The translations under genes were made by a program, and so were the position numbers. A stretch of 64,000 nt of DNA, taken from positions 1,240,001 through 1,304,000 of the forward strand of contig NZ_AP027079.1 in assembly GCF_030295385.1 (NCBI RefSeq), read 5' to 3'. Origin of the DNA: Geothrix oryzae. GTDB taxonomy: Bacteria; Acidobacteriota; Holophagae; Holophagales; Holophagaceae. Position 1 is the stretch's first letter, and the number at the start of each line of letters is the position of its first letter. This document shows, in pieces, positions 38,828 through 51,172 of this stretch. Under the pieces are notes generated by a model. That model worked only from the letters and a program-made list of their open reading frames with translations. It was not told where the DNA came from and searched no databases.

Positions 38828-40042
38828 ATGTCCAAGCCCACCGCCTCGACCTCACTGGAAACCCAGGCCGTCCATGCCGGCCGCGAAGTGCTCCATGAGC
38901 AGGGCATCCACGCCATGCCCATCGACCTCAGCAGCACCTACCCGGTGCAGAACCTCGATGAGGGCGGTCGCAGCCTCGAGGCCATGGCCATGGGGGGCCT
39001 GCCCATCGGCAGCCCCGTCTATTCGCGCCTCTACAATCCCACCGTCGCCCGCTATGAGCAGGGCCTAGCCCAGCTCGAAGGCGCGGCGGAGTGCGTGGCC
39101 TTCGGTTCCGGCATGGCCGCGGTGACGGCCTGCCTCATGGCCGCCAAGCAGCGGGGCGGCCATATCGTGGCCGTGCGACCCCTCTACGGCGGCACGGATC
39201 ACCTGCTGGCCTCGGGCATGCTGGGCCTGGAAGTGAGCTGGGCCGAGGCCGACGGCATCGCCGCCGCCATCCGCCCCGACACCGCCATGGTGATCGTGGA
39301 AACCCCCGCCAACCCCACCCTGGCCATGGTGGACCTGGAGGATGTGGTCCGACAGGCGGGCAAGGTGCCCGTGCTGGTGGACAACACCTTCGCCACCCCC
39401 ATCCTGCAGAACCCCATCAAGCACGGCGCGACGCTGGTTCTCCACAGCGCCACCAAGTTCCTGGGCGGCCACGGCGACGTGCTGGCGGGCCTCGTGGCCA
39501 CCAACAACGACTGGGCCACGGAGCTGCGCAAGGTGCGCGTCATCACGGGCAATGTGCTGCACCCGCTGGCCGCCTATCTGCTGCATCGCAGCCTCCCCAC
39601 GCTGCCCCTGCGGGTGCGTGCCCAGCAGGACGGCGCCAAGATCATCGCGGAGCGGCTGGCCAAGCACCCCGCCGTTTCCGCCGTGCACTTCCCGGGCCTC
39701 CAGGGGCAGGACCCCAAGGGCCTCCTGGGCCGCCAGATGAAAGGGCCCGGCTCCCTCATGGCCTTCGAGGTGAAGGGCGGCTTCGAGGCCGCCGCCATCG
39801 TGATGGCCGAGGTGAAGCTCATGACGCCCGCCGTCTCCCTGGGGAGTGTCGACACGCTGATCCAGCACCCGGCGGCGCTCACCCACCGCGTGGTGGACGC
39901 GGAGGCCCGGGAGCACAGCGGCGTCTCCCAGTCGCTCATGCGGCTGTCCGTGGGGCTGGAAGGTCCCGAGGACCTCTGGGCCGATCTGGAGCAGGCCCTG
40001 GCCAAAGCCATGGCCGGGATGGCCGTAGGTACCTCCCGGTAA
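38828..40042 (+). CDS. Cys/Met-metabolism PLP-dependent enzyme (gamma-lyase/synthase type)
   Basis: A 404-residue fold-type I PLP enzyme of the trans-sulfuration family. Residues include the tyrosine/arginine segment SPVYSRLYNPTV, FGSGMAAVTA, the cofactor Asp in LVDNTFATP and the Schiff-base Lys210 in LHSATKFLGGHGD. Candidates are methionine gamma-lyase, cystathionine gamma-synthase or gamma-lyase; sequence alone does not decide. The divergent Lrp regulator suggests amino-acid-responsive control. Clear AGGAG ribosome site. Confidence 0.9.
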   Translation: MSKPTASTSLETQAVHAGREVLHEQGIHAMPIDLSSTYPVQNLDEGGRSLEAMAMGGLPIGSPVYSRLYNPTVARYEQGLAQLEGAAECVAFGSGMAAVTACLMAAKQRGGHIVAVRPLYGGTDHLLASGMLGLEVSWAEADGIAAAIRPDTAMVIVETPANPTLAMVDLEDVVRQAGKVPVLVDNTFATPILQNPIKHGATLVLHSATKFLGGHGDVLAGLVATNNDWATELRKVRVITGNVLHPLAAYLLHRSLPTLPLRVRAQQDGAKIIAERLAKHPAVSAVHFPGLQGQDPKGLLGRQMKGPGSLMAFEVKGGFEAAAIVMAEVKLMTPAVSLGSVDTLIQHPAALTHRVVDAEAREHSGVSQSLMRLSVGLEGPEDLWADLEQALAKAMAGMAVGTSR

Positions 40043-40119
40043 TGTGAAAAAGAAGATAAAAATGCAGGATTGATCCAGTAGGTCCGGGTCGTATGCTGGG
40101 TTTCATCCCGGAGCAACCC

Positions 40120-40167
40120 ATGGTGGATCTGACGGCGGCGGACGCGTGGCATCCCACGAAGGTCTGA
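40120..40167 (+). other. Possible 15-codon upstream reading frame before the DUF1835 gene
   Basis: ATG 40120 is preceded by an ideal GGAGCAACCC ribosome site and by TATGCT (40092-40097). It reads only 15 codons (MVDLTAADAWHPTKV) to TGA 40165-40167 and overlaps the GTG start at 40146 in another frame. It may couple translation, or signal a frameshift in the sequence. Confidence 0.35.
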
Positions 40168-40856
40168 TCCATCTCCATTGCGGGGATGTCTCCGCCGCCG
40201 TGCATCGGCGCTCCGGCCTGCCGGGAGCCCTCCAGGTGTGGCGGGACTCCCCCGCCGTGGGTCCCTGGACCTCGGACCCCGCGCACCTTCCGGTCCTCCG
40301 GGCGGCCTGGTGGGGCGTCACCGGACCGGAGACGCGGGGGCTCGGCGCGCCCCAGAATCCGGCCCGCGCCCCCGAGCCCGTGCTCTGGTTCGGTCCCGAT
40401 CCCTGGGAGCAGGCCTGCCTGCTCTGGGTGCTGGCGGAGCTGCCCGGCGACACCCTCCCGGACCTGGTGCTGCTGGATCGCAGCGTGGGCCAGCTGCCGC
40501 CCACGGCCCTGCCGCCCCTGTTCGCCCAGCGGATCCTCATGGACGGGGAAGTCATCGAGGCCGCCCGGGACCTCTGGATCCGCTTCCTCGAAGGAGGATG
40601 GGGGGCCCTGGGCGGCTGCCGGATTCCCAGCCTTCCCCACCTGGCCCCGGCGCTGGCGCGCCTCGCGGAAGACCACCCGGCGGTGGGTCCTGGGCGCACC
40701 CGGCGGCAGCTCCAGGGTCTGGTGGCTCAGGGCGTGCGGGACCTGCCCAGCCTCCTGGCGGAACTCCGGAAGCTGGAGGACCCGCGCCACGGCGCCTGGT
40801 ACGGCGATCTCGTCGTCGCGAAGATGGTGGATGCGATGGGGGTACGGCTAGGCTGA
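40146..40856 (+). CDS. DUF1835-like protein
   Basis: A 236-residue soluble protein. The N-terminus LIHLHCGDVSAAVHRRSGLPGALQVWRDSPAVGP matches in pattern the DUF1835 family start (HIVNGD...L...VLVWRD...GP). The C-terminal half is helical, like DUF3658 that often follows. Function is unknown. The GTG at 40146 is the only plausible in-frame start and has no ribosome site of its own; a short upstream frame overlaps it. Confidence 0.65.
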   Translation: MASHEGLIHLHCGDVSAAVHRRSGLPGALQVWRDSPAVGPWTSDPAHLPVLRAAWWGVTGPETRGLGAPQNPARAPEPVLWFGPDPWEQACLLWVLAELPGDTLPDLVLLDRSVGQLPPTALPPLFAQRILMDGEVIEAARDLWIRFLEGGWGALGGCRIPSLPHLAPALARLAEDHPAVGPGRTRRQLQGLVAQGVRDLPSLLAELRKLEDPRHGAWYGDLVVAKMVDAMGVRLG

Positions 40857-40863
40857 ACCTTCC

Positions 40864-42951
40864 GTGATGTCGCTTGCTCCCCTCCCACTGTCGTCCAAGG
40901 TCACGGTCCTCCGGGGCCTGGGACCGGCGCGGGCGGCGGCGCTGCAGGAGGCCGGCATCGACAGCCTCCGCGACCTGCTGTGGAGCCTGCCCTACCGCTA
41001 TGTGGACCGCGGCAGCCTGCGGCCCCTGGGCAGCCTCGAGATGCGGGGCTTCGAAGCGGCGGATCCCGGCCTGGTGACGGTGCTCGGCACCGTGCGCGAC
41101 CTGCGGCAGAGCACCACACGGGTGCAGCGCATGGCCCTCACCGAGGCGCTGCTCGACGATGGGACGGGCACCCTGCGCCTGATCTGGTTCAACCAGCCCT
41201 ACCTGGCCCGTGCGCTCAAGGTGGGAGACCGCGTGCTGGCCTTCGGCTCGCTCTTCGTGGGGCGCCACGGCCTGGAGATGCGCGGACCGCAGTTCGAGCA
41301 GATGGGCCGGGAGGAGGACATCGGCTGGGTCCGGCGATACCTCCCCCTGTACCGGAAGCTGGGGCCGCTCACGGGGCGGGTCCGGCAGAAGCTGGCCCAG
41401 GAGGCTCTGGGGCGGGCCCATCCGCCGGAAGAATGGCTGCCGCTGGAGCTGTCCAGGGACCTTCCCGAGCCCCTGGCTGCCTTCCGCCTGCTGCATGATC
41501 CGCCCGACGACAGCGATCCCGCCCTGCTGGAATCCGGCGACTCGCCGGCCCATCAGCGGCTGGCTGCCGAGGAGCTCTTTGCCTTCTCGCTGGGCGTGGC
41601 CCTGCGCCGGGCCGGTCGCCTCAAGCGCCACGGCCTGGTGGTGCCCACCTCGCCCGAGCTGCGCGAGCGTCTCAGGTCGTTTCTTCCCTTCCGCCTGACC
41701 GGGGCCCAGCGGCGGGCCTTCAAGGACATCGTGGCCGACCTCACCTCGGGCCGCGTCATGAACCGCCTACTTCAGGGCGATGTGGGCAGCGGCAAGACGC
41801 TGGTGGCGCTGCTGTCGATGGCGATGGTCGCGGAGACCGGGGGACAGGGGGCCCTGCTGGTGCCGACGGAGGTGCTGGCCCGCCAGCACGCGGCCAGCTT
41901 CCGGCGCTACCTGGGCGATCAGGCCGATTCCCTCCAGCTGCTGCTGGGCGGCATGAAGGCGGGTGAAAAACGGGCTGCGCTCGCCCGCATCGCCAGCGGC
42001 GAGGCCCGCTATGTGATCGGCACCCACGCGCTGTTCCAGGAGGCCGTCGCCTTCCACCGGCTGCAGCTGGTGGTGGTGGACGAGCAGCATCGCTTCGGGG
42101 TGAAGCAGCGGGAGGCCCTGAAGGAGAAGGGCGGCGACCCCCACTGGCTGGTGATGAGCGCCACGCCCATCCCGCGCTCGCTTGCCCTGGCCGTGTTTGG
42201 CGACCTGGACCAGAGTGTCCTGGACGAGCTGCCACCGGGTCGGCAGCCCATCACCACCAAGCTGCACAAACCGGACGCCGCCGAGCGGGCCTGGGAGCAG
42301 GTGCGGCGGGAGCTGGCCGAGGGACGCCAGGCCTTCGTGGTGAGCCCCAGCATCGATCCCTCGGACGAGGGCAAGGTGCAGCTGCGCGACATCCAGGCCA
42401 TGGAAGCGCTGCTGCGGAGCATCTTCCCCGACGAGGGGATCGAGGTGGTCCACGGCCGCCTGAAGGCTGATGAGATGGCGGCCCGCATGGGGCGTTTCGT
42501 GGCGGGCGGGGCGAAGATTCTCCTGGCCACCACGGTCATCGAGGTGGGGGTGGATGTGCCCAACGCCACGGTGATGGTGGTGGACCACGCCGAACGCTTC
42601 GGCCTGAGCCAACTCCACCAGCTGCGGGGCCGCGTGGGGCGCGGCGCCCACCGCAGCCACTTCCTCATGATCAGCGGTTCCGAAACGGAACGGTTGCAGA
42701 CGCTGGTGGAGACCCAGGACGGCTTCCGCATCGCCCAGCGCGACCTGGAGCTGCGGGGACCCGGGGAGTTCTTCGGTGTGCGTCAGGCAGGGCTTCCCCA
42801 GTTCCAGGTGGCCGATCTGGTGCGGGACCGCCACCTCCTGGCCCGCTGCCGGGAAGCCGCCGACCGCACCCTGACCCTGGGCCTCAGCGAAGCGCAGGCG
42901 GCCTGGCTGAAGCGGGAGCAGGTGCGGCTGAGGCTGGCGGAGATCAGCTGA
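40864..42951 (+). CDS. recG: ATP-dependent DNA helicase RecG
   Basis: RecG regresses stalled replication forks and migrates branched DNA. The 695-residue protein has the N-terminal wedge/OB domain (GLGPARAAALQEAGIDSLRDLL), Walker A GDVGSGKT, motif II VVDEQHRFG, motif III MSATPIPRSL, and motifs IV-VI including TTVIEVGVDVPNA and QLRGRVGRG. Length is typical. GTG 40864 and ATG 40867 are adjacent possible starts. TAGGCT (40849-40854) lies just upstream, inside the DUF1835 gene end, and would give a leader of only a few bases. Confidence 0.96.
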   Translation: MMSLAPLPLSSKVTVLRGLGPARAAALQEAGIDSLRDLLWSLPYRYVDRGSLRPLGSLEMRGFEAADPGLVTVLGTVRDLRQSTTRVQRMALTEALLDDGTGTLRLIWFNQPYLARALKVGDRVLAFGSLFVGRHGLEMRGPQFEQMGREEDIGWVRRYLPLYRKLGPLTGRVRQKLAQEALGRAHPPEEWLPLELSRDLPEPLAAFRLLHDPPDDSDPALLESGDSPAHQRLAAEELFAFSLGVALRRAGRLKRHGLVVPTSPELRERLRSFLPFRLTGAQRRAFKDIVADLTSGRVMNRLLQGDVGSGKTLVALLSMAMVAETGGQGALLVPTEVLARQHAASFRRYLGDQADSLQLLLGGMKAGEKRAALARIASGEARYVIGTHALFQEAVAFHRLQLVVVDEQHRFGVKQREALKEKGGDPHWLVMSATPIPRSLALAVFGDLDQSVLDELPPGRQPITTKLHKPDAAERAWEQVRRELAEGRQAFVVSPSIDPSDEGKVQLRDIQAMEALLRSIFPDEGIEVVHGRLKADEMAARMGRFVAGGAKILLATTVIEVGVDVPNATVMVVDHAERFGLSQLHQLRGRVGRGAHRSHFLMISGSETERLQTLVETQDGFRIAQRDLELRGPGEFFGVRQAGLPQFQVADLVRDRHLLARCREAADRTLTLGLSEAQAAWLKREQVRLRLAEIS

Positions 42952-43229
42952 AGGCGTCCCCCCCCAGGAGGGTGGTGCCGTTAATTCACAGGGGGGGGCT
43001 TCCGCCCGGTTCCATAAAGCCTAAATTAAGTTTCAATGCCACCTGAAGCCGGTTCAGGCCTCGGATTAGAGGGATTCCACCATGTCGTACGGTTGATTTA
43101 AACATTGATATGAATTGTATTAATAGAACCGTCAATAGACAGCCTCTACCGATCCAGGTCGCAGCCTCGACCCTCGAACAGTTCCCGCCAAGCCATCCAG
43201 CGACATCAGCCGTGTTCAAAGGAGGTCGT
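42952..43229 (+). other. Leader region of the decaheme cytochrome gene
   Basis: No gene is seen. It holds C- and G-runs at 42958-43010, an inverted repeat CCTGAA-N5-TTCAGG (43042-43058) and an AT-rich stretch (43090-43130) with TTGATT and TGTATT 17 bases apart, a plausible promoter. A perfect AAAGGAGGT ribosome site ends it. Confidence 0.4.
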
Positions 43230-46007
43230 ATGAAACTCGTCACACGCAAGGGGTTCTGGGCGCTGGCCGTGGCGGCCTCCCTGACCTTGGCGATCGCCGG
43301 CTGCCGGGGATCGGCCGGACAGAACGGCCTCAACGGAACGAACGGGACCAACGGCACCAACGGGTCCGACGGCTCCAACGGCGCGCCGGGCGCGGGATAC
43401 GCCATCGATGCCACCACCTACACCCCCGACGAGTGGGGCGCCCTGACCCTCAAGGCCACCGTCACCAGTATGCAGATCAGCTCCCCGCCGGTGGTGACCT
43501 TCACGGTCACCGACGGCCACAATGTGCCGGTCAAGGGCCTCGGCTTCAAGAGCCAGGCCTCTTCGGCGGCCTTCGCCAGCTACGCCAACATGGCCTTCGG
43601 GCTCGCCAAGCTGGTGCCTGGTGCTAACGGAAGCCCGAGCATCTGGGTCAATTACATCGTGACGGCCAACCCGACGGCCGCGGCCCCCGCGACCTGGGTT
43701 CCCACTCGGCCCACCACGGACAACATCGGGACCCTGGTTGACAACGGTGACGGCTCCTACCGCTACACCTTCCGCCGGGATATCACCCAGACCCAGGCCC
43801 TGCTGGATGCCGCGACCTACACGGGCGCCAACATCAAGGCCGACCTGGGCGATGTGAGCTACAACCCCAACCTGACGCACCGCCTGACCGTGTTCGTCGG
43901 CGGCACCGCCCGGGGCACGGGCACCAACACCCCGGATGCCTCCAACAGCGGCGTCGTCTCGGTACCCATCCTGAATCCGGCCAACGCGGCCTATGACTTC
44001 ATCCCCGCCACGGGCGCCACGGTCACGGCGGCCAATGAGCAGCGGGAGATCGTCGATGTGTCCTCCTGCTTCAGCTGCCATGCCAAGTTCGAGTTCCACG
44101 GCAGCGGCCGCCAGGACACCCGCTACTGCGTGATCTGCCACAACGATCAGCGCAAGTACGGGCGGGCCGAAGCCACGGTGACCGCCACCACGGTGACTGG
44201 TGAGACGGGCAAGCTCAACGGCCATGCCTCGGGCGACTTCCCCTCCTTCATCCACCGGATCCACATGGGGGAGGAACTGACCAAGACCGGCTATGCCTAT
44301 GGCGGCATCGGATTCAACGAGGTCACCTATCCCCAGGATCACCGCAACTGCGTGAAGTGCCACAGCGCCAGCGCGACTACGCCCCAGGGCGACAACTGGT
44401 TCAACAATCCCAGCCGCTTCGCCTGCGGCGGGTGCCATGACCGCGTGGATTGGACGACCGGCGCCAACCATGCCGGAGGCGCGGCCACCTCGGATGTCAA
44501 CTGCTCCAGCTGCCACGGGGCCGCGGGCGTCAAGCTCAACCACCTGCCCGTGGTGCCGCCGGATCCCGCCAACATCTGGAATACGGGCGGAACCAACAAC
44601 AACACCAACGCCTCCTTCGTCGGGGCCTTCACCAACAACCTGCCTCCCGGGGCCAGCAAGGTGACCTGGGATCTGAAGAGCGTGACCCTCAACGCCTCCG
44701 CCAAGCCGGTCTTCACCTTCCGGTTCCTCAAGGATGGCGTGCCCGTGGTCTTCAATACCTATGCCGCGGGCTCCGTCACGGAGTTGATGGACAACTTCGT
44801 GGGAGGGCCCAGCTTCTACATCGCCTTCTCCGTGCCCCAGGACGGCATCGCCAATCCGGCGGACTGGAACGCCACCGCCAGCACCTACCTCAAGAACATC
44901 TGGCGCGGCGACAACCTGGACATGGGCGGGGCGGCCCTGGCGGCCTCCGCCCAGGGCACCCTGAGCGCCACGCCGGACGCGAGCGGCTACTACACGCTGA
45001 CCATGACCGGCGTGAACATCCCCACCAGCGCCGGGATGGTCACGGGCGGCATAGGCTACACCTACGCCCTGACGCTCACCCAGCCCCTGACCCAGACCAA
45101 TGTGCCCGGATACCCCTACATCCCGCGGGTCGCGGGCTCGCCGGGAACAGGGCAGGGCGGCCTCAGCGTGCCGGCCCCCAATGTCTCGAAAGTCATCAGC
45201 GGGACCCTGCCCGCCGGCTTCCCGCTCAACGCCGGAAGTACGACCACGGGGCCCGCGAACACCGCCCGCCGCACCATCGTGGCGAACGCGAAGTGCCTGG
45301 ACTGCCACGGCGCCATGGGCGTGTTCACCACCAAGGCCTTCCATGCGGGCCAGCGCAACGATCCCCAGACCTGCGAGTTCTGCCACAACGGCCAGCGGGT
45401 GAACAACGGCTGGGGCGTGAACATGAAGGATTTCGTCCACGCCATCCACGGCGCGGGCAAGCGGCAGGCCAAATTCTCCTGGGAAGCCTCCGCGGGCGAC
45501 ACCTACTGGAAGACCACCTATCCGGGCGTCCTGAACAACTGCGAGGCCTGCCACCTTCCCGGCACCTATGATTTCGGCCTCTCCACCAACGCGGGCGAGC
45601 TGCCCGACCTGCTCTGGACCACCGTCGCCACCGGCACGGTCCCCACGCCGGTGAATGTGGTCGTCACGGGCAGCGAGCCGATCCCCGGCGTCTACTGGTC
45701 CCCCTATGCGGCCGCCTTCGGTTCCGGCTTCGCCTTCGGGACCGGCTTCAGCTACAACGCCAATACCGGCGCCACCACCACGGCTGCGGGCACCACCCTG
45801 GTGAACTCGCCGTATGTGGCCGCCTGCTCCAACTGCCACGACAGCTCCCTGGCCATCTCGCACATGCAGACCAACGGCGGCACCTTCTACGGCAGCCGGG
45901 CCAGCGTTACGGCGGGGGGCAAGTTCGTGCGGCAGGAGCAGTGCTTCCTCTGCCACTCCGCCGGCAAGATCGCCGATGTGCGGGTGGTCCACATGACCTT
46001 CAAGTGA
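43230..46007 (+). CDS. Decaheme outer-membrane c-type cytochrome lipoprotein (OmcA/MtrC family)
   Basis: A 925-residue lipoprotein that probably carries electrons on the cell surface for extracellular respiration. The signal ends in a lipobox (LAIAGC), followed by a Gly/Asn/Thr repeat (NGTNGTNGTNGSDGSNG). Ten CxxCH heme sites are present in two groups of five: near residues 280, 301, 374, 399, 425 and 690, 715, 771, 867, 905, matching the two pentaheme domains of OmcA/MtrC. The start is set by AAAGGAGGT six bases before ATG 43230. No MtrA/MtrB-like porin-cytochrome genes are adjacent, so its electron conduit is elsewhere. Confidence 0.92.
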   Translation: MKLVTRKGFWALAVAASLTLAIAGCRGSAGQNGLNGTNGTNGTNGSDGSNGAPGAGYAIDATTYTPDEWGALTLKATVTSMQISSPPVVTFTVTDGHNVPVKGLGFKSQASSAAFASYANMAFGLAKLVPGANGSPSIWVNYIVTANPTAAAPATWVPTRPTTDNIGTLVDNGDGSYRYTFRRDITQTQALLDAATYTGANIKADLGDVSYNPNLTHRLTVFVGGTARGTGTNTPDASNSGVVSVPILNPANAAYDFIPATGATVTAANEQREIVDVSSCFSCHAKFEFHGSGRQDTRYCVICHNDQRKYGRAEATVTATTVTGETGKLNGHASGDFPSFIHRIHMGEELTKTGYAYGGIGFNEVTYPQDHRNCVKCHSASATTPQGDNWFNNPSRFACGGCHDRVDWTTGANHAGGAATSDVNCSSCHGAAGVKLNHLPVVPPDPANIWNTGGTNNNTNASFVGAFTNNLPPGASKVTWDLKSVTLNASAKPVFTFRFLKDGVPVVFNTYAAGSVTELMDNFVGGPSFYIAFSVPQDGIANPADWNATASTYLKNIWRGDNLDMGGAALAASAQGTLSATPDASGYYTLTMTGVNIPTSAGMVTGGIGYTYALTLTQPLTQTNVPGYPYIPRVAGSPGTGQGGLSVPAPNVSKVISGTLPAGFPLNAGSTTTGPANTARRTIVANAKCLDCHGAMGVFTTKAFHAGQRNDPQTCEFCHNGQRVNNGWGVNMKDFVHAIHGAGKRQAKFSWEASAGDTYWKTTYPGVLNNCEACHLPGTYDFGLSTNAGELPDLLWTTVATGTVPTPVNVVVTGSEPIPGVYWSPYAAAFGSGFAFGTGFSYNANTGATTTAAGTTLVNSPYVAACSNCHDSSLAISHMQTNGGTFYGSRASVTAGGKFVRQEQCFLCHSAGKIADVRVVHMTFK

Positions 46008-46013
46008 GGATGC

Positions 46014-46044
46014 CCGAGGGGGCGGCCCCAGGCTGCCCCCTCGG
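46014..46044. terminator. Bidirectional terminator between the cytochrome and coaD genes
   Basis: CCGAGGGGGC (46014-46023) and GCCCCCTCGG (46035-46044) form a perfect 10-bp stem with an 11-base loop between convergent genes. T runs are poor on both sides. Confidence 0.65.
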
Positions 46045-46045
46045 T

Positions 46046-46528
46046 CTACCCCTTGAGGAGCCGCTCTGAGATGCGGGTCCGCAGGATCTCGGGCACCAGC
46101 TCGGACAGGTTGCCGCCCATGCTGCCGATCTCGCGGACGAAGCGGCTGCTCACGGCGCTGTACTTCTCCTTGGGCATGAGGAAGACGGTTTCCAGCTCCG
46201 GGGCCAGCTTCCGGTTCATGAGGGCCATCTGGAACTCGTACTCGAAATCGCTGAAGGCCCGCACGCCCCGGATGATGAACTGGGCATTCTGCGCCTTGGC
46301 GAAGTCCACCAGCAGGCCGTGGAAGGTGGTCACCTCCACCTGGGGCAGGGTGGCCGTCAGTTCCTTCAGCATGGCGACCCGCTCATCCACGCTGAAGGCG
46401 GGGGATTTGGCAGGGTTGTGGAGGACGGCCACCACGAGCCGGTCCACGAGCTTCGCCGCCCGCTGGATGAGATCCCAGTGACCGAGGGTCACGGGATCAA
46501 AGGAGCCTGGATAAATGGCCGACCGCAC
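46046..46528 (-). CDS. coaD: Phosphopantetheine adenylyltransferase
   Basis: Transfers AMP to 4'-phosphopantetheine in coenzyme A synthesis. The 160-residue enzyme shows AIYPGSFDPVTLGHWDLIQRA with the HxGH-type TLGH nucleotide motif, a Lys in NPAKSPAFS and RGVRAFSDFEYEFQM. ISSRFVRE-like VSSRFVREI closes the fold. GTG 46528 was chosen: GGAG lies five bases upstream, while GTG 46534 would overlap the ribosome site. TAGGCT (46555-46560) lies six bases before the predicted transcript start. Confidence 0.95.
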   Translation of the reverse strand: MRSAIYPGSFDPVTLGHWDLIQRAAKLVDRLVVAVLHNPAKSPAFSVDERVAMLKELTATLPQVEVTTFHGLLVDFAKAQNAQFIIRGVRAFSDFEYEFQMALMNRKLAPELETVFLMPKEKYSAVSSRFVREIGSMGGNLSELVPEILRTRISERLLKG

Positions 46529-46554
46529 GGTCACTCCGACAAGGATGGGGAATC

Positions 46555-46560
46555 AGCCTA
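46555..46560 (-). promoter_or_regulatory. -10 element of coaD
   Basis: TAGGCT on the minus strand followed by GATTCC, the same 12 bases found upstream of the crcB riboswitch. Predicted start near 46548. Confidence 0.5.
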
Positions 46561-46605
46561 GCGCATCCGGGCTGGCCCCAGGATCAAAGGTCCCTCCGGG
46601 GCGCC

Positions 46606-47118
46606 TCAGCGCTTGAGGATCCAGGTGCGGAAGCGGCCCGCGCCCTCGGTCTCGCACCAGCAGGGAAGTCCCTCCTGCCGGAACTGCTCCAGCAGCGGTT
46701 CGGGGCGGAAAGGGCTCAGGAGCTGCAGCGCCTCGCCGGGCGCCAAGGTCAGCAGGGCCCGGCGGGTGCGGGCCAGGGGGTGCTCGCCCGCCGCCAGCAG
46801 CCCATCGGCATCCAGGGTGGAGCGCACGGAGGCGGGTTGCGCCCAGTCAGGCCTGGGGTCCTCGACCGGCGCCCCGTCGGCCCGGCCGGGGGTTGCAGTG
46901 GTTTCGCCGGTCAGCTCCCGGAGGAAGCGCACGAGCTCCGCCGCGGGGAGGCCCGCGACGCGGGCCGCCTGCTCCACGGTGGCCAGCTTCGCCACCGTCC
47001 TGCGCAGGATGGGGTTCCGCAGCTTGGCGAACTCGGGGACCCGCGCGATGAGAGCCTCCTGCAGCTCGGGGTGGGCTTCAAGGAAGGCGCCGATCTTCGT
47101 TTCAGGCGTGATGTTCAT
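46606..47118 (-). CDS. DUF1858 plus DUF2249 domain protein
   Basis: A 170-residue two-domain soluble protein. Residues 1-75 (MNITPETKIGAFLEAHPEL through AARVAGL) match DUF1858, a small helical domain. The C-terminal 70 residues (LTLAPGEALQLLSPFRPEPLLEQFRQEG) match DUF2249, a TusA-like fold. These domains often accompany hemerythrin/DUF438 proteins and nitrogen-oxide metabolism. It is seven bases after the DUF438 gene, so the two are an operon. Exact function unknown. Confidence 0.85.
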   Translation of the reverse strand: MNITPETKIGAFLEAHPELQEALIARVPEFAKLRNPILRRTVAKLATVEQAARVAGLPAAELVRFLRELTGETTATPGRADGAPVEDPRPDWAQPASVRSTLDADGLLAAGEHPLARTRRALLTLAPGEALQLLSPFRPEPLLEQFRQEGLPCWCETEGAGRFRTWILKR

Positions 47119-47125
47119 GGGAACC

Positions 47126-48376
47126 TCAGGCCTGGGCCGGCGCGTCGTATTCGAGCAGACGGCGATCGCCCTCCAGGGCCCGCAGGCGCGTGAGGTCCTG
47201 GGTCACTTCGAGGGTGCCCAGGTAGGCCCCGGCTTCGTCGCGCACGGCGAAATAGCGGATGTGGACAAACTTCCCCTGCATCTGGATCCAGAACTCCGCC
47301 ACGGTCTGGCGGCCGGCCTTGAAGTCGTTCAGGATGCGCTCGACCACATCCACGCTCTTGGGCGGGTGGCAGTGCTTCACCTCCCGGCCCAGGATGGTGC
47401 GGCTGCGGGCGAAAACCCGGTCGGGGCCCTCGCTGAAGAAGGCCACGCGGTCGTCCGCGTCCACGAAGGTGATGTCCACGGGCAGCGAGGAGAAGATGCC
47501 GATGAGCTGCTGGAAGCTGAGGGAGCCGCTGGGGAAGGCCACGGCCGAGGCCTCGGGCAGGCGGATGGGGTCCTCGGGCAGGGTGGCCACGGGCGGCGCG
47601 TAGCCCGCGGCGGGCTCCACCAGGCACCAGCCGTAGCGGGGGCTGTCCCGCCAGACCTCGCCCCACTCCTCCTCGGTGAAGAGGCCCAGGCACATGGGCA
47701 GGAGGATGGTCTCCTCCTTGTAGATCATGGATTCCAGCGCGGCCAGGGCCGGGCGCAGCACCGTGGGGACCAGGATCTTCAGCTCGGCGCCGCTGAGGCT
47801 CTCCTCCCGCAGCACTTCGATGGCCCCTTTGAGCAGGTCGCGCACCTCGTCGTCCTTGGCCCACATGACCTTGGAGGGCCCCGTGTTGCCATGGCGCTCC
47901 AGGACGGAGAAGACCAGGTGCTCTTTGCGCTGGTAGTGCTTGTCCACATCCATGAGGGCGTTGAAGGCCCCCAGCACGGCCAGGCGCTCGGTGGTCGGGT
48001 AGGCCTGGTCGGCCACGGACTCCAGGGCCGCGACCCGCTCCCGGGCGCTGCCGAGGGCGCTTTCCACGGCCCGGTTCTCCCGGCGGAAGGTGTCCACGGG
48101 ATGACCGGGCGGCACTTCCCGGGGGGCGATGGGCTTGGCCACGGCGTCCTGGAGCACCTCCGCGTGGAGGTCGCACATGGACTTCACCTCCTCCGGGCTC
48201 ATGCCGTCGGCCATGAGGGACTGCTCCATGGCCGCGATCTCGGTGGCATCCACCTCGCCCACCATGTGCGCCAGCCGCGCCTTCACCTGCTCGGGAGCCT
48301 CGCCCCGGTGCAGGTGCAGGATGATCTCTTTGAGGGTGGCGATCCGGTGTTCCCGGTTGTTGAGGAGTTCGCTCAT
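47126..48376 (-). CDS. DUF438, hemerythrin-like and PAS domain protein
   Basis: A 416-residue soluble protein. Residues ~1-80 match DUF438, ~90-240 a hemerythrin-like region with His and Glu residues (DVDKHYQRKEHLVF, MIYKEETILLP), and ~290-405 a PAS domain with LPVDITFVDADDRV. CHPPKSVDVVERIL belongs to the PAS-type segment typical of this family. Such proteins are thought to sense or handle O2, NO or iron; that role is inference. The start 48376 has a GGGAAGA ribosome site that is buried in a leader hairpin. The DUF1858/DUF2249 gene follows. Confidence 0.88.
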   Translation of the reverse strand: MSELLNNREHRIATLKEIILHLHRGEAPEQVKARLAHMVGEVDATEIAAMEQSLMADGMSPEEVKSMCDLHAEVLQDAVAKPIAPREVPPGHPVDTFRRENRAVESALGSARERVAALESVADQAYPTTERLAVLGAFNALMDVDKHYQRKEHLVFSVLERHGNTGPSKVMWAKDDEVRDLLKGAIEVLREESLSGAELKILVPTVLRPALAALESMIYKEETILLPMCLGLFTEEEWGEVWRDSPRYGWCLVEPAAGYAPPVATLPEDPIRLPEASAVAFPSGSLSFQQLIGIFSSLPVDITFVDADDRVAFFSEGPDRVFARSRTILGREVKHCHPPKSVDVVERILNDFKAGRQTVAEFWIQMQGKFVHIRYFAVRDEAGAYLGTLEVTQDLTRLRALEGDRRLLEYDAPAQA

Positions 48377-48381
48377 GGTGT

Positions 48382-48445
48382 CTTCCCGTGGGGGGCCATC
48401 CCCGGGAAGAAGAAATAACATAGTAAATGAATCAACAATTCTCAA
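48382..48445 (-). promoter_or_regulatory. DUF438-gene promoter and leader hairpin
   Basis: On the minus strand TTGAGA (48440-48445), 17 bases, TATGTT (48417-48422), start near 48410. The ~34-base leader folds into CTTCCCG (48403-48409) paired with CGGGAAG (48382-48388), which includes the ribosome site. Confidence 0.65.
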
Positions 48446-48504
48446 ATGTGATCTGCGTCGTCCAGACCTGGATTCCCGGCCGGAGAGGGGCCGTGACCGA
48501 GTGC

Positions 48505-48510
48505 TAAAGT
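48505..48510 (+). promoter_or_regulatory. -10 element of a probable leaderless ddl promoter
   Basis: TAAAGT, then six bases (GGGACC), then the ddl ATG at 48517. Confidence 0.5.
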
Positions 48511-48516
48511 GGGACC

Positions 48517-49614
48517 ATGAGCGAGAAACTGAGCGTCGGCCTTCTCTTCGGCGGGGAATCCCCTGAACACGAAGTCTCCATCGTCACGGCGCGGGCCATC
48601 GCCGAACATCTGGATTCGGTGCGGTTCCAGGTGCGGCCCATGGGCATCGCTCGCAACGGCGTGTGGGCCGTCCTCGGCGATCCCTTTGCGCGGCTGGCGG
48701 CGGGCGAGCTGCCGGAGCGGAGCGACCACCCCTTCCTCCCCTTGGAGAAGGGCGCGGAGGCCACGCCGCTGCCGGATGTCTTCTTCAATGCCCTGCACGG
48801 CGCGGGAGGCGAGGATGGCCAGATCCAGGGCTACCTGGAGCTGCTGCACCGGCCCTACACGGGGGCGGGGCTGCTGGCCATGGCCGCGGGCATGGACAAG
48901 TGGATCACCAAGCGCCTCTGGGAATCGGAAGGCCTGCCGGTGGTGCCCTATGTGGGGCTCACGGAGGAGCGGTGGCGGCGCGAAGCCGCGGTCTGCCTCG
49001 CGGAATGCGCCAAACTCGGGCTGCCCCTCTTCGTGAAGCCCGCCAACCTGGGCAGCAGCATCGGCGTGGAGAAGGTGAAGCGCGCCGAAGACCTGCCGGC
49101 GGCCCTGGACCGGGCCTTCACCTTCGATCGGCGGGTGCTGGTGGAGCAGGGGCTCGATGTGCGCGAGATCGAGGTGGCGGTGCTGGGGGGCGACGAGCCC
49201 CAGGTGTCCCAGCCGGGCGAAGTGATCGTGGCCGACGAGTTCTACACCTTCGAGGACAAGTACCTCCACGGCAAGAGCCGCACGGAGATCCCCGCGAACA
49301 TCCCCGAGGAGCTGGCCGACCTGGTGCGCAAGCTGGCGGCCAGGGCCTTCGCGGCCTCGGACGGCTACGGCATGGCGCGGGTGGATTTCTTCCTGGAGCG
49401 GCTCACGGGGCGGGTCTTCCTCAACGAGCTGAACTTCATCCCGGGCTTCACCAGCATCTCCATGTATCCCAAGATGATGGCGGCCAGCGGCGTGCCCTAT
49501 GCGGACCTGCTGACCCGGCTCATCGACCTGGCCCTGGCCCGGCATGCCCAGATCGTGGTCAAGCAGAAGGGGTTCCAGTCCGGCAGCGACTGGTTCCGGG
49601 GCGCTCAAGGTTAG
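48517..49614 (+). CDS. ddl: D-alanine--D-alanine ligase
   Basis: Joins two D-alanines for peptidoglycan precursors. The 365-residue ATP-grasp enzyme begins with LLFGGESPEHEVS, has the substrate Glu and LHGAGGEDGQIQGYLE, the ATP-grasp core PLFVKPANLGSSIGV, and the C-terminal NELNFIPGFTSISMYPKM with metal-binding Asn and Glu. The family motif usually reads NTxPGxT; FIPGFT is a normal variant. Start is set by the leaderless promoter and conserved N-terminus. Other cell-wall genes are not adjacent. Confidence 0.95.
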   Translation: MSEKLSVGLLFGGESPEHEVSIVTARAIAEHLDSVRFQVRPMGIARNGVWAVLGDPFARLAAGELPERSDHPFLPLEKGAEATPLPDVFFNALHGAGGEDGQIQGYLELLHRPYTGAGLLAMAAGMDKWITKRLWESEGLPVVPYVGLTEERWRREAAVCLAECAKLGLPLFVKPANLGSSIGVEKVKRAEDLPAALDRAFTFDRRVLVEQGLDVREIEVAVLGGDEPQVSQPGEVIVADEFYTFEDKYLHGKSRTEIPANIPEELADLVRKLAARAFAASDGYGMARVDFFLERLTGRVFLNELNFIPGFTSISMYPKMMAASGVPYADLLTRLIDLALARHAQIVVKQKGFQSGSDWFRGAQG

Positions 49615-49639
49615 GCCGGGTCTGGCCGATACCAGCTCC

Positions 49640-49957
49640 ATGGATGGATTCGGCATCGCCCTCTCGGGACTGCGCGCGGCCAGCGCGGGGTTGGCCGTGC
49701 AGGCGAACAATGTGGCCAACCTCCAGTCCGATGGCTTCCGGGCGAAGCGCGTGGCGTTCGTGGCCGAACCCGGTGGCGGCGTCCGGGCGCAGGGGGCGCC
49801 CGAGGATCCGGCCCCGGGGGTCCCCGGTGCCTCGAATGTGGATCTGGCCTCGGAAGCGGTGCAGGGCATGGGTTTCGACCTCATGTACAAGGCCAACCTC
49901 AAGGTCCTGAAAGCCGAGGACGAGCGCCTGAAGGCCACCCTCGATCTGAAGGCGTAG
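49640..49957 (+). CDS. Small flagellar basal-body rod-like protein
   Basis: A 105-residue protein built only from the two terminal segments that flagellar rod and hook proteins share. The N-terminal LSGLRAASAGLAVQANNVANLQSDGFRAKRV is the flagella_bb_rod motif; the C-terminal DLASEAVQGMGFDLMYKANLKVLKAEDERL matches the rod C-terminal helix (usually ending ...T-x-D). The middle is short and Pro/Gly-rich. No other flagellar gene is in the window. It may be a reduced FlgC-like relative or a vestige. The gene is between ddl and the S41-like gene. Confidence 0.75.
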   Translation: MDGFGIALSGLRAASAGLAVQANNVANLQSDGFRAKRVAFVAEPGGGVRAQGAPEDPAPGVPGASNVDLASEAVQGMGFDLMYKANLKVLKAEDERLKATLDLKA

Positions 49958-49978
49958 CCGCCGGGCGGAATAAGCCCC

Positions 49979-49984
49979 TACACT
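49979..49984 (+). promoter_or_regulatory. -10 element of a probable leaderless promoter (S41-like gene)
   Basis: TACACT, then six bases (GAGGCC), then ATG 49991. Confidence 0.45.
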
Positions 49985-49990
49985 GAGGCC

Positions 49991-51172
49991 ATGCACGCCC
50001 GCACCTGGCTCTCCGTCTTCTCGCTTCCCCTCGTGACTGCGTTCACCTTGCCGGTGCTCCAGCAGGGCACGCCGCCCAAAGCGGCGGCCAAGCCCGGGGG
50101 CAGGCCCGTGCCGCAGGATCCGCTCGCGGGCCTGTCCGACATCCAGGATGTGCTGGCCCTGGTGCAGCAGAACTATGTGGATGCCCCGGACATGGAGAAG
50201 GTCGTCTCCGGCGGCGTCCAGGCCGTGCTGGAGCGATCCCATCCCCTGAACGCCTACCTGTCGGCGGAGGATCTGCGCCTGCCGGATCCCGGCCCTGCCG
50301 AGGCCGGGCTCACGGTGATGAAGCGCGGCAACCTCTACGCCACGGTGTTGGCGGTGGTGCCCGGTGGGCCCGCGGCCAAGGCCGGCATCCAGGCGGGGGA
50401 TGTGATCCGCAAGGTCGATGGGGATTCGGTGGGCCGACTCAGTTCTTGGGCGCTGGAACGCCGCCTGCGTGGAGAGGAGGGCTCGACGCTGGATCTCTAC
50501 CGCTACTCCAACGCCACGGGCGACCTGGCCAAGACCACGCTCCATCGGCAGCGCCTCGCCGCGGCCCCCGCGACCCTCAAGCAGGGCGTCGGCGCGACGC
50601 TGCTGACCCTGCCCGACCTGGCCCCCGGCCGCGCCGAAGAGCTGAAGAAGCTGCTGGCTTCCGTGGACCGCAGCCACACGCTGGTTCTGGACCTGCGCCA
50701 GTGCGCCAAGGGATCGATGGAGGAAGCCGCGGCCGTGGCCGGCCTCCTGGGGGCCAAGGAGACCTTCGGCACCCTCCAGGAGGCGGGTAAGCCCGACCGT
50801 CCGGTGGCGGTGATCGGCTCCGGCACGCCCTTCGCGCGTCTGGCGCTGCTGATGGGCCGCTCCTCGCTCGGAGCTTCCGAGGTCCTTGCCACCTGCCTGA
50901 AGAAGGGCGGGGCGAAGGTCTTCGGCGAGAAGACCCTGGGCCTGGGCGTCGAGCGGAGCCGCTTCCCGCTGAAGCAGGGCGGGGCCGTGGAACTGGTCTC
51001 CCGCCGCTGGCTCGGCGCGGGCGGCGAAAAACTCGACCGCCAGGGCGTGGCGCCGGATCAGGTGTTGCGGCTCGCGGACGCGGACGATGCGCTCACCAAA
51101 GTGCTGGCTGCGCTCCAGGCGCCGCCGCCCGCTGCGAAGCCCGACGCGAAGCCCGTGGCGAAGGCCTCCTAG
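49991..51172 (+). CDS. S41/CtpA-like PDZ protein, probably catalytically inactive
   Basis: A 393-residue exported protein with an N-terminal signal (WLSVFSLPLVTAFTLP), a PDZ domain (about 100-165, VVPGGPAAKAGIQAGDVIRKV) and a C-terminal processing-peptidase fold. In active enzymes the Ser of SASASE and a Lys 25 residues later (FGKG) form the dyad. Here the matching segments read SSLGASE and LGLG, with Gly294 and Leu318 at those positions. It therefore looks like a pseudoprotease, perhaps a periplasmic scaffold. The TTG start of the YibQ gene follows directly, so both are one operon. Confidence 0.8.
   Translation: MHARTWLSVFSLPLVTAFTLPVLQQGTPPKAAAKPGGRPVPQDPLAGLSDIQDVLALVQQNYVDAPDMEKVVSGGVQAVLERSHPLNAYLSAEDLRLPDPGPAEAGLTVMKRGNLYATVLAVVPGGPAAKAGIQAGDVIRKVDGDSVGRLSSWALERRLRGEEGSTLDLYRYSNATGDLAKTTLHRQRLAAAPATLKQGVGATLLTLPDLAPGRAEELKKLLASVDRSHTLVLDLRQCAKGSMEEAAAVAGLLGAKETFGTLQEAGKPDRPVAVIGSGTPFARLALLMGRSSLGASEVLATCLKKGGAKVFGEKTLGLGVERSRFPLKQGGAVELVSRRWLGAGGEKLDRQGVAPDQVLRLADADDALTKVLAALQAPPPAAKPDAKPVAKAS

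Follow-up and report, generated by a model that had tools for sequence, protein, structure and literature searches.

A lone OmcA/MtrC-type decaheme lipoprotein gene between recG and coaD in Geothrix oryzae, and a porin-cytochrome cluster elsewhere in the genome

A gene for a decaheme cytochrome that stands alone between recG and coaD raises the question of where such a protein would obtain its electrons and how its gene came to occupy this site. The genome of Geothrix oryzae is a single contig (C1) of 3,265,981 bases, of which we analyzed a stretch of 64,000 nucleotides (C1:1240001-1304000), hereafter called the window; positions refer to the window unless a contig is named. In whole-contig coordinates, the gene lies at C1:1283230-1286007. 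The locus contains the following features.

40864..42951, + strand: recG, upstream neighbor (context, no operon link shown)
43093..43125, + strand: AT-rich upstream stretch, partly conserved in 6 orthologues; candidate promoter or operator
43220..43226, + strand: AGGAGGT ribosome-binding site
43230..46007 (stop codon included), + strand: decaheme CDS for a 925-aa OmcA/MtrC-family lipoprotein (by ORF, profile, motifs and fold)
43230..43304, + strand: signal peptide and lipobox, LAIAG-Cys25
43308..43397, + strand: ten Gly-X-Y (collagen-like) triplets, predicted disordered, a family-wide feature
43398..44024, + strand: N-terminal beta domain (domain I-like), approximate bounds from the model; match to MtrC domains I-II (9eov), Z 23.8
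44058..44543, + strand: first five-heme domain (domain II-like), residues 277-438, with CxxCH at 280, 300, 374, 399 and 425
44544..45254, + strand: second beta domain (domain III-like), zero cysteines, approximate bounds
45279..45995, + strand: second five-heme domain (domain IV-like), residues 684-922, with CxxCH at 689, 715, 771, 866 and 905
46014..46044, no strand assigned: strong hairpin of 14 pairs in the gap where the decaheme and coaD genes converge (RNA fold of the + strand, z -5.8)
46046..46534, - strand: coaD, downstream neighbor (context)

The decaheme gene and its product

The initial annotation had read this gene as an OmcA/MtrC-type decaheme lipoprotein from ten CxxCH sites in a five-plus-five layout and a lipobox, and both the motifs and the assignment proved correct. 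A motif scan of the ORF placed the ten CxxCH in two groups of five, spanning residues 280-429 and 689-909, and apart from Cys25 of the lipobox (LAIAGC) the remaining 20 cysteines are all heme cysteines. Shuffling the protein 5000 times gave at most two CxxCH, and no other stop-to-stop frame of at least 40 codons in the whole window held more than one. An antisense ORF of 928 aa over the decaheme gene was set aside as a shadow frame of GC-rich DNA.

On the NCBIfam profile TIGR03507 (OmcA/MtrC; cut-off 209.3), the protein scored 465 bits over profile positions 4-672 of 672, and Pfam PF22113 (MtrC/MtrF domain II/IV) matched three stretches (164 bits). The OmcA N-terminal domain PF22112 reached 20.3 bits, under its cut-off of 27; a search of the whole genome with PF22112 returned no match, with the control likewise silent. 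When the PDB was searched with a profile built from 84 relatives, only MtrF, UndA, OmcA and MtrC entries were found at E-values up to 0.001. The AlphaFold model (pLDDT 87.6, pTM 0.83) displays the alternating beta and five-heme domains that characterize the family. In VIA-align, it matched OmcA (4lmh; Z 25.8, 5.3 A over 587 residues), MtrC of S. baltica (6qyc; Z 24.5, 4.4 A over 541 residues), UndA (3ucp; Z 23.5) and MtrF (3pmq; Z 20.5) over nearly the full length, and the first unrelated fold followed at Z 5.9. The likeness to these Shewanella proteins thus extends to the 5+5 CxxCH layout, the lipobox and a near-full-length multidomain fold (Z 20.5-25.8), whereas identity over the structural alignments is only ~19-26% and the chain is longer (925 aa versus 593-800 for full-length solved chains).

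The heme-binding residues are strongly conserved. All ten CxxCH and exactly ten further histidines (H217, 290, 342, 345, 414, 705, 737, 740, 878 and 921) were invariant in 15/15 aligned proteins with identity down to 28%. In the alignment of 84 sequences, all ten CxxCH columns were listed as invariant, with 2/84 rows having nine exact motifs; seven of the ten extra histidines were invariant, H217 and H414 were conserved at ≥90%, and H290 was not listed as near-invariant. Judging from the alignments, the ten extra histidines are candidate distal ligands, as bis-histidine hemes would require. Shewanella MtrC and OmcA carry a disulfide in domain III that is not general to the family. This disulfide cannot form in the lone decaheme because the protein has no cysteine beyond the hemes and the lipobox, a trait found in 15 of the 84 aligned sequences, the lone decaheme included.

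The mature protein begins with ten Gly-X-Y triplets (G27 to G54), and no run of nine or more arose when the mature sequence was shuffled 2000 times. Residues 1-55, i.e., the signal peptide and the Gly-X-Y stretch, were modeled with pLDDT <50. The collagen-like repeat proposed earlier as a flexible tether is therefore present, and its predicted disorder is compatible with such a role but does not show it; nor is the repeat special, since a run of at least six was found in 74/84 aligned relatives (a loose lipobox pattern in 75/84). Across 56 decahemes from the genus and class, at least eight triplets occur in 53 and two or fewer in the other three, and the class relatives G038, G040 and G048 display no such repeat in the alignment or in their start sequences. 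On these comparisons, the repeat is a family trait and no peculiarity of the lone gene.

As a protein, the lone decaheme is thus ordinary for the OmcA/MtrC family, a new member of an established type, and by family and fold probably an outer-surface electron carrier. It would be a lipid-anchored ten-heme cytochrome on the outer surface, with electrons passing along its two five-heme chains. For a type II secretion route to the surface, the best GspD-like match scores 180 bits, below the curated cut-off of 351.

The gene lies 278 bases downstream of recG on the same strand, and the end of coaD lies 38 bases beyond it on the opposite strand. Of the upstream signals, GGAGGTC is conserved in 6/6 orthologues. 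A scan for sigma-70-like promoters upstream of the gene found no match, the promoter/terminator scan found a single terminator-like site, within chance, and an Rfam search over window 40000-50000 returned zero matches. The hairpin at 46014..46044, which lacks a T run, is possibly a terminator shared by the decaheme and coaD genes. Beyond coaD follow a DUF1858/DUF2249 protein and a DUF438/hemerythrin/PAS protein (46606-48445, - strand), and ORFs with the same start sequences lie beside coaD in close relatives.

A porin-cytochrome cluster at a distance

No cytochrome, porin or MtrA/MtrB-like genes were found adjoining the lone decaheme. The earlier claim that no porin-cytochrome module adjoins the gene accordingly holds, with recG and coaD as flanks, but it is true only locally: elsewhere in the genome, a barrel, five-heme and decaheme cluster occupies C1:350158-362484, ~0.93 Mb away. 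The genome search for MtrAB or other conduits that the initial annotation had suggested thus yielded a conduit cluster but no MtrA-like decaheme. Specifically, a TIGR03507 search of the genome gave three further members (C1:352.9-362.5 kb), which are 62, 56 and 51% identical to the lone decaheme in their best segments. Upstream of these three paralogues lie genes for a protein of 463 aa and for two lipoproteins, each containing five CxxCH, and downstream lie ResB and cytochrome c assembly domains (PF01578). The cluster decahemes (L037:10864, L037:14095 and L038:1902) and their orthologues share a near-constant signal peptide with a PLKQLCGL core that is absent from the lone gene.

For the 463-aa protein, Pfam gives no match; over 19 orthologues it gave weak, scattered matches only, and a PDB sequence search with the barrel profile found none. 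The orthologue in G. fermentans was modeled with 22 strands, though with a pLDDT of only 73.4, and this model matched outer-membrane porins with Z up to 17.0 and MtrB (6r2q_B) with Z 14.3. The distant cluster thus combines a predicted outer-membrane barrel with a pentaheme lipoprotein, an Ext-type layout.

Evidence for an Mtr-type module was also sought. On the MtrA profile TIGR03508 (cut-off 192.2), the genome scored 21.5 bits at best, compared with 185 bits for an MtrA-like protein from a class relative, and no dense MtrA-type CxxCH locus occurred among 16 groups of 36 pattern matches in the genome. MtrB (PF11854) was likewise unmatched, but this profile equally misses the barrels beside MtrA-like genes in 3/3 class relatives. 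In those relatives (G038, G040 and G048; loci L086, L087 and L088), the decaheme gene is accompanied by genes for a ten-heme MtrA-like protein and a barrel-like protein of ~640 aa that PF11854 does not recognize. The distant module is a porin-cytochrome cluster, not clearly of the Mtr type.

Other multiheme ORFs were seen in passing. The second five-heme lipoprotein (L037:10038-10688, + strand) has, by eye, a sixth site of the CX5CH type near its C-terminus, and its counterpart in G023 (L085:3177-4373) contains ten CxxCH. A very large lipoprotein-like ORF (L040:5280-8957, - strand; G000:C1:3095280-3098957) hosts 22 CxxCH plus longer-spaced C..CH motifs, and its N-terminal part resembles the second five-heme lipoprotein by eye.

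Several described systems invite comparison. In Geobacter, ExtE has 21 transmembrane segments and ExtF is a pentaheme lipoprotein, and the outer-surface lipoprotein of Ext clusters is often replaced while the rest is kept (PMC6148476). Compared by description only, the Geothrix cluster resembles ExtEFG/ExtABCD in that it too joins a barrel to small five-heme lipoproteins, but it has OmcA/MtrC decahemes as its outer-surface components and showed no dodecaheme (ExtA/ExtG). ExtB/E-, extEFG- and mtrF-like genes are reported in Holophaga (PMC7399161, PMC11748539), and in the latter also for Geothrix. In some Desulfobacterota genomes, mtrC lies in an operon apart from mtrAB (PMC12133095); there the conduit is MtrAB, whereas in Geothrix it is a barrel and two five-heme lipoproteins with decahemes of their own. 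Compared with Shewanella OmcA and MtrC, the conduit partner of the lone decaheme is neither adjacent nor clearly MtrAB. Geothrix MAGs have been described as encoding putative new PCC types and outer-surface multiheme cytochromes outside such clusters (PMC6344600); the accessible part of that source gives no gene-level description of the present locus, and we found no paper naming it in the open-licence literature, as far as its accessible text goes.

The absence of adjoining conduit genes could also mean a stand-alone surface cytochrome that works with secreted shuttles or stores electrons and can do without a trans-membrane conduit. For G. fermentans, redox shuttles have been reported (cited in PMC5732950), but respiratory electrons still have to cross the outer membrane and a candidate conduit is encoded in the genome; we regard this reading as improbable.

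Distribution, selection and ancestry

We next consider the distribution of the gene in 41 Geothrix genomes, including its own and one of the same species. Some relative of the lone decaheme occurs in 37/41 and the barrel in 34/41, but an orthologue of the lone gene itself (86-99% identity) was found in only six (G000, G060, G002, G015, G008 and G025), among them Geothrix fermentans DSM 14018 (G008), Geothrix campi SG10 (G025) and the MAG Geothrix sp. BP11 (G060). In all six, the gene sits between recG and coaD with its ten heme motifs intact. The barrel accompanies the lone gene in all 5 carriers of at least 97% completeness; the sixth carrier, G060 (64% complete), gave no barrel match.

The lone gene was not found in the other 35 genomes, some of which are incomplete. 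Of the recG loci (recG was found in 41/41 genomes, with loci given for 30), four have a junction without insert (G063, G007, G003 and G023), coaD ending 16-114 bases past recG, and G018, G026 and G006 have another gene pair at the site. In 18 non-carrier stretches read further, no CxxCH was found in the listed ORFs downstream of recG. Across the genus, the recG-coaD junction (window 42952-46045; relatives L121-L144) varies in content: it is empty or holds the decaheme or unrelated genes (by eye kinase-like, ACT-domain-like and others).

The gene is dispensable, given that it was not found in 35/41 genomes and that five close relatives of the same recG clade lack it at the junction. A redundant copy on its way out would fit this absence and the three paralogues that remain, but dN/dS was 0.043-0.170 in 15/15 orthologue pairs, the heme motifs are intact in 6/6 carriers and the ribosome-binding site is kept, leaving this already disfavored reading barely credible. 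The same dN/dS values rejected a pseudogene, and the lone protein is therefore kept for its function.

The ancestry of the gene was examined in two midpoint-rooted trees, whose deeper forks are weak. In the first, built from 56 decahemes, the six lone genes formed one clade (support 100). Its sister group (100) was made up of cluster decahemes from G020 and G029, not of the resident cluster genes. In the second, to which 17 loci were added and from which some long or duplicate sequences were removed, the group of lone genes (99) also included L148, L149 and L150. In these nearest relatives (L148, L149, L150, G020 and G029), the decaheme has barrel and/or five-heme genes as neighbors, and G020 and G029 have only one decaheme beside the conduit. 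We rejected a recent duplication from a cluster gene of the same genome, as the lone clade (100) adjoins decahemes of other genomes and not the resident paralogues. In the recG tree, the six carriers fall inside an eleven-genome clade (100/99) together with five non-carriers, and G020 and G029 lie elsewhere. This pattern fits one arrival or retention in the carrier clade, followed by losses. On the tree topologies, the lone gene was likely transferred from another lineage, with an ancient duplicate as the alternative. A tblastn search of plasmids found no match. Separately, three contigs binned as betaproteobacteria (L152:3703-6498, L153:7800-10595 and L157:7947-10748) carry genes for decahemes that share 56-59% identity with the Geothrix protein and form their own clade, which hints at an old transfer between phyla or at misbinning.

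A proposed role for the detached copy

We consider it reasonably probable that the lone gene encodes an outer-surface decaheme that is a detached fourth copy, fed in trans by the resident conduit and maintained by selection. It would be of the terminal-reductase type that is otherwise encoded beside the barrel, the two five-heme lipoproteins and the three decahemes, and would hand electrons to acceptors outside the cell, e.g., Fe(III), humics or electrodes. The shared distant conduit would most likely feed it in trans; this conduit is the likeliest electron source because genes of its type adjoin the decahemes most closely related to the lone one, and because the barrel is present in the five carriers of ≥97% completeness. 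The cytochrome c assembly genes beside the cluster also favor the model, whereas the differing signal peptide of the lone gene, its dispensability and the missing barrel match in G060 count against it. The gene may have entered the site between recG and coaD, or been retained there, in a single Geothrix lineage, where purifying selection maintains it. The computations establish family, fold, heme motifs, lipobox, genomic context, distribution and selection. Heme loading, surface exposure, the direction of electron flow and the use of the distant conduit are parts of this model that we infer, and the protein is probably a spare or specialized tip for the shared conduit.

Shewanella OmcA is thought to receive electrons from MtrC. 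The main rival, which we rate as rather unlikely, is that the lone decaheme takes its electrons on the surface from a cluster decaheme and does not dock on the barrel conduit. Three decahemes are already supplied by the cluster, and the structure that aligns best is OmcA (Z 25.8), with MtrC not far behind (24.5); the nearest relatives, by contrast, are encoded beside a conduit and in G020 and G029 are the sole decaheme there, which favors direct docking.

Multiheme surface proteins can run in either direction, so the protein might take up electrons, e.g., from Fe(II) or a partner cell, and not release them. It has been proposed that ferrous iron supplies Holophaga and Geothrix with electrons, which they then pass on to cable bacteria (PMC11748539). 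This would agree with uptake, but the genus is known to reduce Fe(III) (PMC3669403) and no sequence feature favors uptake, making this direction very improbable for the lone decaheme.

Under the preferred reading of a decaheme fed in trans, the decaheme tip itself may be exchangeable. We tentatively suggest, as a possibility, that a copy from another Holophagaceae lineage settled at recG-coaD and plugs in trans into a non-MtrAB conduit (a 22-strand barrel and two five-heme lipoproteins), providing an alternative extracellular reductase. If this is true, Geothrix would reduce Fe(III) through a conduit other than Mtr, fitted with interchangeable OmcA/MtrC tips. In G. fermentans and its relatives, the lone gene would then offer a clean single-gene test of a surface decaheme using a far-encoded conduit. 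Of greater interest than the protein itself is that OmcA/MtrC-type decahemes would here be paired with a non-MtrAB conduit, for which the detached copy would serve as a test.
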